DNA of 64,000 nucleotides from Lachnospiraceae bacterium FE2018 (GTDB lineage: Bacteria; Bacillota; Clostridia; Lachnospirales; Lachnospiraceae). Both the position numbers and the translations under genes were made by a program. The DNA is taken from assembly GCA_000702845.1 (NCBI GenBank), contig JNKK01000005.1, positions 62,001 to 126,000 on the forward strand, given 5' to 3'. The notes under the pieces are model-generated. The model was not told the origin of the DNA and did no database searches. It saw nothing but the letters and a program-made list of their open reading frames with translations. Below are positions 57,758 to 62,489 of this stretch, one piece after another; within the stretch, counting starts at the first letter, position 1, and each line of letters opens with the position of its first letter.

Positions 57758-57808
57758 ACTCTGTTCCTTTGCATTTACGAATCGGGGTGGGGGTGCAGGG
57801 GCTACGCC

Positions 57809-58384
57809 TGCATCCGCATCTCTTGCTTTTCGACAGTTGCGGATGCACTTTTCATGCTTCGGACTGTTCGCTCTGTCCGGCTCTCGTCTATTTTTGCATC
57901 CGCATCTCTTGCTTCCTGGCAGTTGCGGATGCACTTTTCCTGCCTCTGAGCTTCTCTTTCAGCCTGGCGTCGGCCTGATTTCTCCAGCATTTGTCTGATT
58001 TTGCATCCGCATCTCAAGCTTCCCGGCCGTTGCGGATGCACTTTTCCTGCTTCAGATTGTTCGCACTGTCCAGCTCTTGTCGATTTGTGCATCCACATTT
58101 CTTGCTTTTCGACAGTTGCGGATGCACTTTTCTCGCTTCAGATTGTTCGCTCTGTCTGGCTCTTGTCGATTTATGCATCCGCATTTCTTGCTTCCCGGCA
58201 GTTGCGGATGCACTTTTCTCGCTTCAGACTGTTCGCTCTGTCCGGCTCTTGTCGATTTTTGCATCCGCATCTCTTGCTTCCTGGCAGTTGCGGATGCACT
58301 TTTCTCGCCTCTGATCACTTGAGATTTCCAATAGTTGTCTGATTGGGCATCCGCATCTCTTGCTTTCTGGCTGTTGCGGATGCA
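57809..58384. repeat. Array A: seven 86-bp direct repeats with internal 10-bp inverted repeats
   Basis: Seven elements each hold TGCATCCGCA, a 19- to 20-nt loop and TGCGGATGCA. They start at 57809, 57895, 58002, 58088, 58174, 58260 and 58346. The step is exactly 86 bp except one of 107 bp. Loops are alike (TCTTGCTT..TGGCAGT type), and inter-element spacers are conserved too (CAGATTGTTCGCTCTGTC). Element 4 has one changed base in its left arm (TGCATCCACA) and element 7 lacks the first T. The array fills most of the 743-bp gap between rsmB and rlmN. No gene is present; open frames here read repeats. Confidence 0.93.
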
Positions 58385-58500
58385 CTTTTCCAAAACAGAA
58401 ACTAAATAATCAGAAATCCAATAATGCATAAATACATAAATAAATGAAGGAAGAAATAGCTATTTGTCTGACGAACCTATCTTCTCCGTCAACCACCGGT

Positions 58501-59868
58501 TTATCTTCGGAATCTTGCAATGAAAAAACCGTCACAGGCATGTATACCGGGATAGAGCTGCAGATAGTTCCGGTTTCCGGCTTCTTCAGCCAGCTCCGGC
58601 GGAAGAAAGTTCTTCAGAGGATCCGACTTCAGATCCGAATTCTTTAAGATCCATTCCACATTTTCTTCGTTCTCACGCGGATCAAACGTACATGTGCTGT
58701 ACAGCAGTGTTCCTCCGGGTTTGACATACCTCACAGCATTCTTCAGAATCTGCCGCTGCAGCTGTACAAGGCTCTCTGTCTTCTCATCAGATGCTTCGTA
58801 ACGGATATCCGGTTTCCTGCCGATCACGCCCAGACCGGAACAGGGAAGATCTGCTATCACAACTTCTGCTTTTCCTTCCATAGACGGATCGAGCACGGTG
58901 CCGTCATGAACCTGTACTTCTATATTTTCAACCTGCAGCCGCTTTATATTATCTCTGATCAGACCTGCTTTCTGCTCTGAGACATCTCTTGCAATAATCC
59001 GCCCGTTTCCTTTCATGAGATCCGACGCCAGCAGACTTTTTCCGCCGGGAGCCGCAGCCAGATCCAGAATCAGATTCCCCTGTTGTATTCCCGCTGCTTC
59101 CACAGCCAGCATGGAACTAACATCCTGAACTGTAATTCTTCCCTCGGCAAAAGCAGGCAGTTTTTCAAGGTCTGTAATACCTGACAGGTAACCTGCATAC
59201 GAGATATACGGAGCCGGTGTGACTGAAATACCTGCTTCCTGCAGTTCCTGTCTGCATTCTGCTTTCCGTTCCAGGAGTTCATCCCGGAAACGCACTGTCA
59301 GCGGGGCCTGTTTCTGGAAAGACGTGCAGACCAACTCTGTTTTCTCCTTGCCAAGTGTTCTGCACCAGCGTTCTGTCAGATATACAGGCATTGAATACAT
59401 GATACTGATAAATCTTATCGGATCTGTCTCCCTGTCAGGCCAGCTGATACGGTCCTTTCCGCGTGCTGCAGAACGTAAAACACCGTTCACAAATCCACGC
59501 AGATTTCCAAATCCGCGGTGAGCAGCCATCCGTACAGCCTCGTTGACTGCCGCTGAATCCGGTACAGCATCCAGAAAATAAATCTGATAGACAGCAAGCC
59601 GGAGAATCTCTCGAATCACCGGCTTCATTTTCTTCGTCTTTGTTTTAGAAAACTGATCAATTATATAATCCAGCTTCAGCCGCCATTCTAAAACACCGCT
59701 GACCAGCTTCCTGTAAAAACGTTCCTCCCGCAGAACCAGTTCCGGATGCGCGCGAAGCATATCCCGCATAACCAGATGAGAAGGACGTTCCTCCTTTTCA
59801 ATTGTCAGAAGCGTATCCAGCGCCAGATTTCTGGCGTCGTTTCGACTCTGTTTTTTCGTAGATGTCAT
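58501..59868 (-). CDS. rsmB: 16S rRNA (cytosine-967-C5) methyltransferase
   Basis: RsmB methylates C967 of 16S rRNA. The 455-residue protein has an N-terminal NusB-like RNA-binding domain (about 10-135, with VYQIYFLDAVPDSAAVNEAV) and a SAM methyltransferase domain: LDLAAAPGGKSLLASDL, ADLPCSGLGVIGRKPD and the catalytic cysteine in YSTCTFDPREN. The start at 59868 fits family length, though its ribosome site (AAAGAAA) is weak. The open frame continues 83 codons upstream through repeat array B and is not counted. Confidence 0.94.
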   Translation of the reverse strand: MTSTKKQSRNDARNLALDTLLTIEKEERPSHLVMRDMLRAHPELVLREERFYRKLVSGVLEWRLKLDYIIDQFSKTKTKKMKPVIREILRLAVYQIYFLDAVPDSAAVNEAVRMAAHRGFGNLRGFVNGVLRSAARGKDRISWPDRETDPIRFISIMYSMPVYLTERWCRTLGKEKTELVCTSFQKQAPLTVRFRDELLERKAECRQELQEAGISVTPAPYISYAGYLSGITDLEKLPAFAEGRITVQDVSSMLAVEAAGIQQGNLILDLAAAPGGKSLLASDLMKGNGRIIARDVSEQKAGLIRDNIKRLQVENIEVQVHDGTVLDPSMEGKAEVVIADLPCSGLGVIGRKPDIRYEASDEKTESLVQLQRQILKNAVRYVKPGGTLLYSTCTFDPRENEENVEWILKNSDLKSDPLKNFLPPELAEEAGNRNYLQLYPGIHACDGFFIARFRR

Positions 59869-59990
59869 ATCTGTTTCTTTTTCTTTGTGAAAGAGTAGTT
59901 TAATTGCGTTCGGGTGATTTTGTGTTTCTATATGTTTCCAGACTCTACCCCTTGCTTTTCTATCCTTGACCAGCGCTTTTTGACCATTTG

Positions 59991-60372
59991 TGCATCCGCA
60001 TCCCGGGCAATCTCGCTTTTGCGGATGCACTTTCCTTGTTTGTTTCTTAATTGGCAAGGATTGTTTCTCCGTTTTTGTGCATCCGCATCCAGGGCAATCT
60101 CTCACTTGCGGATGCACTTTTCTTGATTTCTTCTCCTCGTCAAAGGATTGATTTCAGTTTTTTTGCATCCGCATCCAGGGCAAACGCCCGCTTGCGGATG
60201 CACTTTTTTTGATTTCTTCTCCTCGAGAAAGGTTGCTTCTCGATTTTTGTGCATCCGCATCCCGGCAAACACTCGCTTGCGGATGCACTTTTCTTGTTTG
60301 TCTCTTCCCGACAAAGGTTTCTTCTCAATTTTTCTGCATCCGCATCCCGGCAAACGCTCACTTGCGGATGCA
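59991..60372. repeat. Array B: five 85- to 87-bp direct repeats with the same 10-bp inverted repeat
   Basis: Five elements start at 59991, 60078, 60164, 60250 and 60335. Each has TGCATCCGCA and TGCGGATGCA arms identical to array A, around an 18- to 19-nt loop of the CCCGGGCAA..CGCT type. Loop and spacer sequences differ from array A but agree within array B. Element 3 has an extra inner stem GGGC-AAAC-GCCC. The array lies just upstream of rsmB. No gene is present. Confidence 0.93.
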
Positions 60373-60396
60373 TATAATAAGAAATTGACTGCAAAA

Positions 60397-60682
60397 GGGG
60401 GCTTTAAGTGAGTACGCGCCTGGCAGATTGTTCAACGCCCGGGCAGCAGAATATCCGCTGAACGGCAAAGCATGTACCATCGCTGTGACTTGCATGGAAA
60501 ATACCGTAGAAACGGATGCTTAGATGATGTTAGTGTGCCGGCGAAGAGTGTACCTCTATCACGAATCGGCGGCACACTTACAGAATCTTAGCATGTGGTT
60601 CGATGGTGTTTTCGCGGAGCAGGCGAGGTACATCTTTGACAGATAGCGTAAATATAGAAATTCACTTAAAAACCACTTAAAA
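60397..60682 (+). ncRNA. Probable structured non-coding RNA with a pseudoknot
   Basis: This gene-free 286-bp segment is rich in mutually consistent pairings. The ends pair: TTTAAGTG (60403-60410) with CACTTAAA (60663-60670), then TACGC (60413-60417) with GCGTA (60646-60650). ATGCTTAGAT (60516-60525) pairs with 60585-60594 (9 of 10). Inside it AGTGTGCCG (60532-60540) pairs with CGGCACACT (60570-60578). The loop word TGTACCTC (60549-60556) pairs with GAGGTACA (60625-60632), a pseudoknot. A small stem CCGT-AGAA-ACGG lies at 60503-60514. A-rich unpaired segments favour the plus strand, and TATAAT at 60373-60378 could be its -10. I cannot name the family. Confidence 0.7.
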
Positions 60683-60690
60683 TCAGGTGC

Positions 60691-61407
60691 TCAGCTCCTT
60701 CTGCGTCCTCCGCTTCCGCTCGCAAGCAAAATCAGACGGAGCAGCTGCATCACTGTTGCTGCTGCTGCCGCTACATATGTCATGGCTGCCGCACGCAAGA
60801 CCGCGCGTGACCCGGCAATTTCATTTGATGCCATCAGACCGGTGCCTTCCAGTTTTTTCAGTGCCCGCGAAGAAGCATTAAATTCTACCGGAAGTGTTAC
60901 AATCTGAAACAACAGTGCCAGGCAGAATAATAGTATTCCCGCTGTGAGCAGCGGACGAATTGAAAAAATCAGACCGCCGATGAATACCGGAAATGCCGCC
61001 ATAGACCCGAAATTTGCCACCGGCACCAGTGCAGACCGCAGACGAAGCGGCTGGTATTCTCTTGCATCCTGGATTGCATGTCCGCATTCATGTGCAGCAA
61101 CGCCGATTGCAGCAAGCGAACGCTGTCCATAGACCGTATCAGAAAGATTTACTACTTTGGTGCGCGGATCATAGTGGTCCGTCAGACTTCCGGAAATATG
61201 CTCCACCCTGACATTATAAAGACCTTCACTTTCCAGAATCCGCTGTGCCGCCATAGCTCCTGTCAGACCGCAGGCACTGGCAATCCGGCTGTACTTATTG
61301 AACGTTGACTTCATCCTTCCCTGAACAATCAGAGTAAATACCAGTGCAATAATTACCAGAATATACGTCGGGTCGAGACCCATCATCATTCCATATCCTA
61401 ATCCCAT
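60691..61407 (-). CDS. yugP: YugP-like membrane zinc metallopeptidase
   Basis: The 238-residue protein belongs to the neutral zinc metallopeptidase family of YugP. A membrane helix near residue 10-30 is followed by the zinc motif HECGH (HExxH) in GVAAHECGHAIQD. Three further hydrophobic segments include FPVFIGGLIFSI, and VEFNASSRALKKLE is typical of the family. The start at 61407 is five bases after GGAGGG; the open frame continues into a duplicated leader. It is embedded in the fmt-rsmB cluster, as in other Clostridia. Substrate unknown. Confidence 0.85.
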   Translation of the reverse strand: MGLGYGMMMGLDPTYILVIIALVFTLIVQGRMKSTFNKYSRIASACGLTGAMAAQRILESEGLYNVRVEHISGSLTDHYDPRTKVVNLSDTVYGQRSLAAIGVAAHECGHAIQDAREYQPLRLRSALVPVANFGSMAAFPVFIGGLIFSIRPLLTAGILLFCLALLFQIVTLPVEFNASSRALKKLEGTGLMASNEIAGSRAVLRAAAMTYVAAAAATVMQLLRLILLASGSGGRRRS

Positions 61408-61413
61408 TTCGCC

Positions 61414-61485
61414 CTCCATTTCCGTGCGCGGTGCGTGTGGCACTTGTGCCTCGCGGTGCGCGCGCGACTCCATTTCCGTGCGCGG
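61414..61485. repeat. 18-bp direct repeat in the fmt-yugP gap
   Basis: CTCCATTTCCGTGCGCGG occurs at 61414-61431 and again at 61468-61485, exactly 54 bp apart, with GC-rich sequence between. Its minus-strand form contains the GGAG of the yugP ribosome site, so the leader appears to be a recent local duplication. Confidence 0.85.
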
Positions 61486-61499
61486 CTGCACAGATTATT

Positions 61500-62489
61500 T
61501 CACTTCAAAACTGTTCCTTCCTGCAGGTGAAATCCCCGCAGAAACGCGCCGGCATCCATGCGTTTCTTTCCTGCAAGCTGAAGTTCCCGGATCCGAAGCG
61601 CCCCGTTCCCGGTCTGCACCGAGAAACTTTTGTTTCCAATTGCAAATACGGTTCCCGGAATATGCTCCATAGCTGCATCGTCTTCCGCCGCATCAGCTGC
61701 ATTGTCTTCAACTACATCAGCTGCATTGTCTTCAACTACATCAGCAGCCCAGATCTTCAGCATTTTTCCATCCAGTCCGGTATATGCCGAAGGCCACGGA
61801 TTCAGTCCGCGGATCAGACGCTCTATTTTTACCGCCGGTTCAGACCAGTCGATCAGGCCGTCCTCCTTACGGATCATACGCGCATAAGGTGTCGGACTTT
61901 CTTCCGGCTGCGGGACCGGCTCTGTCGTACCTTCCGCAATCCTGTCCAATGTCTCAACAAGCAATTCTGCGCCTGCTCTGCTGAGGCGCTCAAACAACGA
62001 TCCGCCTGTTTCGTCCGGGGCAAGTTTTATCTCTTTCACCGCCACCATATCGCCGGTGTCCAGACCTTCATCCATCTGCATAATTGTTACGCCTGAAACT
62101 TCTCTTCCGTCGATGACTGCCCACTGAATCGGTGCCGCACCGCGGTAATCGGGAAGCAGTGACGCATGTACATTAATGCAGCCGTATTCCGGCAATTCCA
62201 GTATTTCTTTCGGGATTATTTTTCCATATGCGGCTACGATAATAATATCCGGGTGCAGCGATTTCAGCTGTTCCAGAAATTCATCGTTGCCGCGTACCCG
62301 ATGCGGCTGCAGTACCGGAATATTATGCTGCACAGCCACCTGCTTAACGGCGCACATCTGAACTTTATTGCCGCGTCCGACCGGTTTATCTTCCCCAGTG
62401 ACGGCAGCTGCCACATCATGTCCGGCTTCAATCACTGCCTCCAGACTGCCGGCCGCAAAATCCGGCGTTCCCATAAAAACGATTCTCAC
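61500..62489 (-). CDS. fmt: Methionyl-tRNA formyltransferase
   Basis: Fmt formylates initiator Met-tRNA. The 329-residue protein has the formyltransferase core with NVHASLLPDYRGAAPIQWA (Asn106, His108) and the catalytic aspartate in GLDTGDM (Asp144). A C-terminal OB-type domain begins near 225. At residues about 248-276 it carries an acidic repeat insertion (VVEDNAAD twice, then AAEDD), absent from ordinary Fmt. Its ATG overlaps the def stop codon by four bases, the classical def-fmt coupling. Confidence 0.95.
   Translation of the reverse strand: MRIVFMGTPDFAAGSLEAVIEAGHDVAAAVTGEDKPVGRGNKVQMCAVKQVAVQHNIPVLQPHRVRGNDEFLEQLKSLHPDIIIVAAYGKIIPKEILELPEYGCINVHASLLPDYRGAAPIQWAVIDGREVSGVTIMQMDEGLDTGDMVAVKEIKLAPDETGGSLFERLSRAGAELLVETLDRIAEGTTEPVPQPEESPTPYARMIRKEDGLIDWSEPAVKIERLIRGLNPWPSAYTGLDGKMLKIWAADVVEDNAADVVEDNAADAAEDDAAMEHIPGTVFAIGNKSFSVQTGNGALRIRELQLAGKKRMDAGAFLRGFHLQEGTVLK
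61691..61744. repeat. 24-bp tandem repeat inside fmt
   Basis: The 24-bp unit starting CATCAGCTGCATTGTC occurs twice perfectly (61691-61714 and 61715-61738) with a partial third and a degenerate upstream copy. It encodes the in-frame acidic VVEDNAAD repeat of Fmt. Confidence 0.9.

Follow-up and report, generated by a model that had tools for sequence, protein, structure and literature searches.

The locus and its element

The window analysed here is a stretch of 64,000 nucleotides from Lachnospiraceae bacterium FE2018 (contig JNKK01000005.1). Its interval 60397-60682 lies in the gap between two co-directional minus-strand genes, an rsmB-like gene and a gene for a YugP-like zinc metallopeptidase (Table 1). 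No open reading frame longer than 47 aa is present in the interval, which agrees with the preliminary description of about 286 bp with no intact gene. The structure beyond chance claimed there is likewise borne out. In a comparison of both strands with 200 shuffles, the plus strand folds with -117.4 kcal/mol against -77.8 +/- 4.6 kcal/mol in the shuffled sequences (z = -8.5, reached by none of the 200), and the minus strand with -92.4 kcal/mol (z = -5.3). The folded plus strand of the window copy indeed runs antisense to the minus-strand operon. As the preliminary description listed no helix coordinates, its helices were judged from computed folds. The end-to-end closure it proposed exists, but consists of a terminal inverted repeat (TIR) and not of an RNA-specific helix.

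Between these TIRs lies a folded hairpin module, 36 nt past the end of which the right TIR starts. A full-length relative in another species of the genus (G003:C96) measures about 600 bp and carries two diverged, inverted modules, one at each end. Compared with this relative, the window copy lacks about 317 bp of interior, retains the right module and preserves the left one as a remnant. By this sequence comparison, 60395-60682 is a copy of the element that has suffered an internal deletion. Since an array of units of about 86 bp and an outer TIR2-like end adjoin it, as in a composite at G000:C4, the region 59890-60682, which separates the rsmB-like from the YugP-like gene, probably represents a single composite insertion. 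This genome contains 44 matches to the 86-bp unit, and four other members of the genus contain none. A second array of such GCATCCGC...GCGGATGC units is found at 57798-58401, on the other side of the rsmB-like gene.

Table 1. Features of the element and its surroundings (window positions)
Feature	Position	Strand	Remarks
rsmB-like flanking gene	58501..59868	-	name recognised from sequence
outer TIR2-like end (AAAGAGTAGTTTAATTGCGTTCG)	59890..59912	+	similar end bounds composite in G000:C4 (L006)
array of ~86-bp units, each with GCATCCGC...GCGGATGC hairpin, next to element	59991..60377		genome matches
left terminal inverted repeat, TIR2 type (AAGGGGGCTTTAAGTGAG)	60395..60412	+	0 mismatches to TIR2 consensus
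remnant of second, inverted module, 3' part only	60414..60466	-	resembles left end of L043/L094
hairpin with outer helix ATGTACC/GGTACAT	60472..60633	+	7/7 pairs in 7/9 copies, including C-G to U-A and U-G
core folded hairpin module (models R1/R2, 144 positions)	60482..60624	+	double-sided changes in 23/44 pairs, 15 copies
apical stretch, supposed pseudoknot partner of 60625-60632	60549..60556	+	unconserved
right terminal inverted repeat, TIR2 type (AAGTGGTTTTTAAGTGAA on minus strand)	60661..60678	-	4 mismatches to TIR2
YugP-like zinc metallopeptidase flanking gene	60691..61407	-	name recognised from sequence

Covariation in the hairpin module

In its various copies the module forms a long imperfect, rod-like hairpin of about 145-190 nt just inside the element end. 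Covarying base changes, which the preliminary description had considered decisive, are genuine for this central hairpin. A structure-blind alignment of 15 copies yields a consensus of 44 pairs, and in 23 of them both sides have changed in a compensatory manner; pairing holds in 95% of the cells, and 77 cells have double changes, compared with 24 +/- 3.5 in shuffled and 9-17 in slid controls. A second alignment, of 25 copies fitted to the structure model, was set against a tree-aware null in which the changes of each column were replayed independently on the tree (500 replicates). Here 39 of the 44 pairs contain double changes, as against 18.5 +/- 2.7 in the null (0/500 replicates reach the observed number), and double-change cells amount to 174 as against 40; the MAFFT alignment A1 led to the same picture. 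Several unpaired or mismatched motifs are kept as well, namely GGAGAAA opposite GTTCGAT, TTA opposite TTA, and GAGT..CACGAA at the tip. Length differences between copies of the module are not multiples of 3, and a conserved reading frame, which the preliminary description had seen as speaking against an RNA, was not found.

The pseudoknot proposed from a loop-to-downstream pairing, by contrast, has to be abandoned. The candidate strands, probably TGTACCTC at 60549-60556 and GAGGTACA at 60625-60632, pair completely in only 2 of 9 aligned copies and retain 3-6 of 8 pairs in the others, and the loop region finds an 8-bp match by chance in about 4% of shuffles. The competing nested outer helix, ATGTACC (60472-60478) with GGTACAT (60627-60633), shares its 3' strand with the candidate pseudoknot and displays compensatory changes; where its seven pairs are incomplete, in two of the nine copies, 5-6 remain. 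The nested helix is thus maintained and the loop-to-downstream pairing is not, and the module is an unknotted rod.

Copies, terminal repeats and empty sites

DNA searches recovered partial copies of the element in the same genome and many copies in G001 and G003, two of four sampled species of the genus, but 93 further genomes from the family and the order yielded no copy. Likewise, nothing was found in phage records or in viral contigs, and the sole match in plasmids, 36 bp in a Borreliella plasmid, is attributed to chance. With covariance model R1, and leaving out reverse-strand shadows, the distinct modules amount to 4 in the genome under study and to about 11 and about 12 in G001 and G003, respectively. 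Models R1 and R2 detect the module in three of five members of the genus, and searches with both models of 397 genomes sampled from the family and 392 from the order gave no convincing relative outside it. The element is so far known from three species of one ruminant-gut genus only. A possible distant homologue in G302 (25.6 bits) was lost with a broader model. A single-copy intergenic palindrome of another genus (G364, L076; 36-37 bits) changed from 37 to 36.5 bits with that model and is a candidate homologue.

The copies occupy gaps between differing genes, and their ends carry TIRs of two families, TIR2 (AAAGGGGGCTTTAAGTGAGTT), to which the window copy belongs, and TIR1 (AATCGGGGTTTGTCGGG). 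TIR2-like sites number 3, 8 and 9 in G000, G001 and G003, as against 0, 1 and 0 in a reversed control, and TIR1-like sites 18, 64 and 27, as against 2, 1 and 2. Many of the TIR1 sites form converging pairs with a spacing of 57-566 bp. The left flank is TA in 11 of 17 TIR1 elements, and the right side is mostly T followed by A or G; few target-site duplications are exact, and at most sites they are unclean.

Searches with concatenated flanks as query revealed, at several loci, orthologous gaps of a few tens of bases in which the element is absent. The cleanest pair consists of a filled site in G001:C88, where the left TIR begins at the upstream gene's stop codon, and its empty counterpart in G003:C90. 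At the window locus, G003 and G002 have about 50 and 60 bp, respectively, and no element, while G001 possesses a TIR2 element of 218 bp whose body differs and comprises two copies of another hairpin, hairpin B; this position can therefore host different elements. The otherwise empty equivalent of the window site in G003:C91 (L175, about 450-500) contains a short inverted repeat, AATGAGTCA...TGACTCATT, which is possibly a remnant of element ends.

Four copies of the module have no recognisable TIRs, so that the module may also occur outside transposon ends. Three of them, L100, L079 and L103, each from a different species, lie in the gap that separates a gltD-like gene from rlmH, where the G001 copy is inverted relative to those of G000 and G003. 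The fourth is situated between uvrB-like and ctpA-like genes. Among the copies in general, the module is found in both orientations to the neighbouring genes, and at the malic-enzyme locus the arrangements of G001 and G003 are opposite.

Relation to known structured RNAs

Membership in raiA, ROOL, OLE or another Rfam family, as suggested in the preliminary description, finds no support in the Rfam scan of the locus, which gave 0 matches at gathering and nothing relevant at E<=10; full-length relatives gave nothing relevant at E<=0.5. Weak matches to miRNA and plant-virus families are regarded as chance, and a partial Clostridiales-1 match in L090 is located away from the element. The raiA motif RNA (ModT, RF03072), likewise a structured RNA of Bacillota, occurs in more than 2,500 species and is modelled with 8 paired regions and 2 pseudoknots (PMC11706538), whereas the present module is a single unknotted rod of one genus without an Rfam match. 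The ornate RNAs OLE, ROOL and GOLLD (PMC12286853) are also gene-less and highly structured, but they are large multi-domain RNAs, in contrast to a small rod within a mobile repeat that matches no Rfam family.

Strong covariation and kept unpaired motifs would also be expected of a structured non-coding RNA gene in its own right (raiA/OLE/ROOL-like or of a new class) that became multicopy by chance, and the TIR-less solo copies retained at the rlmH locus of three species point in the same direction. We nevertheless consider such a gene unlikely, given the TIR bounds, the dispersal and the empty sites, the occurrence in one genus, the missing Rfam match and the variable orientation to genes; promoter and terminator scans moreover revealed nothing above chance. 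The stand-alone ornate RNA of the preliminary description gives way to a structure within a mobile element that is multicopy, bounded by TIRs and missing from some orthologous sites.

Strand preference and polarity

All 24 full copies have the lower fold energy on one common strand (mean -65.2 versus -53.2 with RNA parameters), and DNA parameters favour the same strand in 24 of 24. At pairs of predominantly Watson-Crick type, G-U outnumbers A-C by 39 to 9 cells, or by 16 to 6 when distinct pair types are counted. The folded strand may be RNA or single-stranded DNA, and the fold energies fit both. Hairpin B, a near-perfect palindrome in the same elements, lacks such a bias (11/29), which indicates that strand preference is not general to these repeats; hairpin B was for the same reason rejected as a second RNA module.

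The unbiased hairpin B would fit the idea that the module is likewise a DNA palindrome only, a cruciform or long terminal inverted repeat, whose covariation results from hairpin-templated repair and not from selection on a folded strand, as would the inverted-repeat arrangement of the full-length element itself. However, such repair would lead to perfect palindromes, while the module keeps G-A, U-U and G-U mismatches along with its unpaired motifs, and this pattern, together with the uniform strand preference, renders the palindrome explanation quite improbable.

Hairpin B has a conserved loop, GGCTCAGRTGGAATTCGCC, and is present in elements of both TIR families (L041, L026, L030, L117, L125, L135 and others). 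A third hairpin (GCGGCTGC...GCAGCCGC followed by CCAAAGTGTAAG) is seen mid-element in the fuller elements L090 and L021.

The module is also polarised. A TIR follows its 3' end at a distance of 25-45 nt in 19 of 19 copies with a TIR found there, the second TIR is farther away, and this polarity is common to both TIR families. That the module serves the flanking genes as a cis-acting element of the operon mRNA (an attenuator or processing site), for which its position between co-directional genes and the reported effects of ERIC and NEMIS copies on mRNA stability or processing (PMC2229807) could be cited, is highly improbable, as in the window the folded strand runs antisense to the operon and elsewhere has both orientations, the rlmH-locus copy is inverted in one species, and the window locus is empty in G003 and G002 and filled with a different body in G001.

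Nature and possible mobility of the element

Terminal inverted repeats, dispersed non-coding copies and filled as well as empty orthologous sites characterise MITEs, and the element is very probably a MITE-like, non-autonomous mobile element of a new family, distinguished by a polarised, strand-specific folded module and so far confined to one genus. RUP, ERIC/IRU, Correia/NEMIS and YPAL are bacterial MITEs with RNA stem-loop motifs (PMC2229807). As described, they share with the present element the small size, the lack of genes and the intergenic, dispersed occurrence, in most cases also TIRs and in several TA termini, and their predicted transcripts form long stem-loops with A-G and U-U mispairs. 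The present element differs in being larger (up to about 600 bp) and modular, in having a covarying, strand-specific and outward-pointing module common to two TIR families, and in having no known mobilising transposase. A Porphyromonas gingivalis MITE with a minisatellite (PMC4596501) resembles the composite 59890-60682 in containing a tandem repeat, but belongs to another organism, and the tandem unit of the present composite is itself a hairpin.

Movement of the element would depend on a transposase acting in trans, perhaps TA-targeting, that recognises the TIRs. In view of the TA flanks, and of the analogous case of RUP and IS630-Spn1 (PMC2229807), this could be an IS630/Tc1-like enzyme. 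A search with PF13358 found no autonomous element with matching TIRs in the three draft genomes, the contigs of which break at repeats, and no IS630-type transposase gene in G000 and G003; the IS630-type gene of G001 was rejected as a source, being without matching TIRs.

Selection on the module, in turn, may act on a folded single strand; the simplest case would be a putative RNA read outward through the element end, which could act as a protein- or nuclease-binding rod. A single-stranded DNA hairpin formed during movement would be a less likely alternative. It is a more far-reaching and rather doubtful proposition that the two TIR families share an outward-pointing structured RNA or single-stranded DNA with an active part in mobility or in the control of host operons, which may consist of protein binding, enzyme guiding or self-processing; if true, this would add a new, RNA-assisted kind to the non-autonomous elements. 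Hairpins in MITEs are easily dismissed as by-products of inverted repeats. Here, compensatory change, a single favoured strand, fixed polarity and the occurrence in two TIR families come together, a combination that is the expected look of a working part, and the element provides a testable case of RNA or folded single-stranded DNA with a job in small mobile elements. Such repeats can, at the same time, mimic new non-coding RNA genes in covariation screens.

Other repeats near the locus

Two further repetitive stretches were observed near the element. Direct repeats rich in GTGCGCGG are located around the start of the YugP-like gene (61420-61490), and an fmt-like gene contains 27-bp repeats at 61680-61760, which are in frame and encode AADVVEDN.
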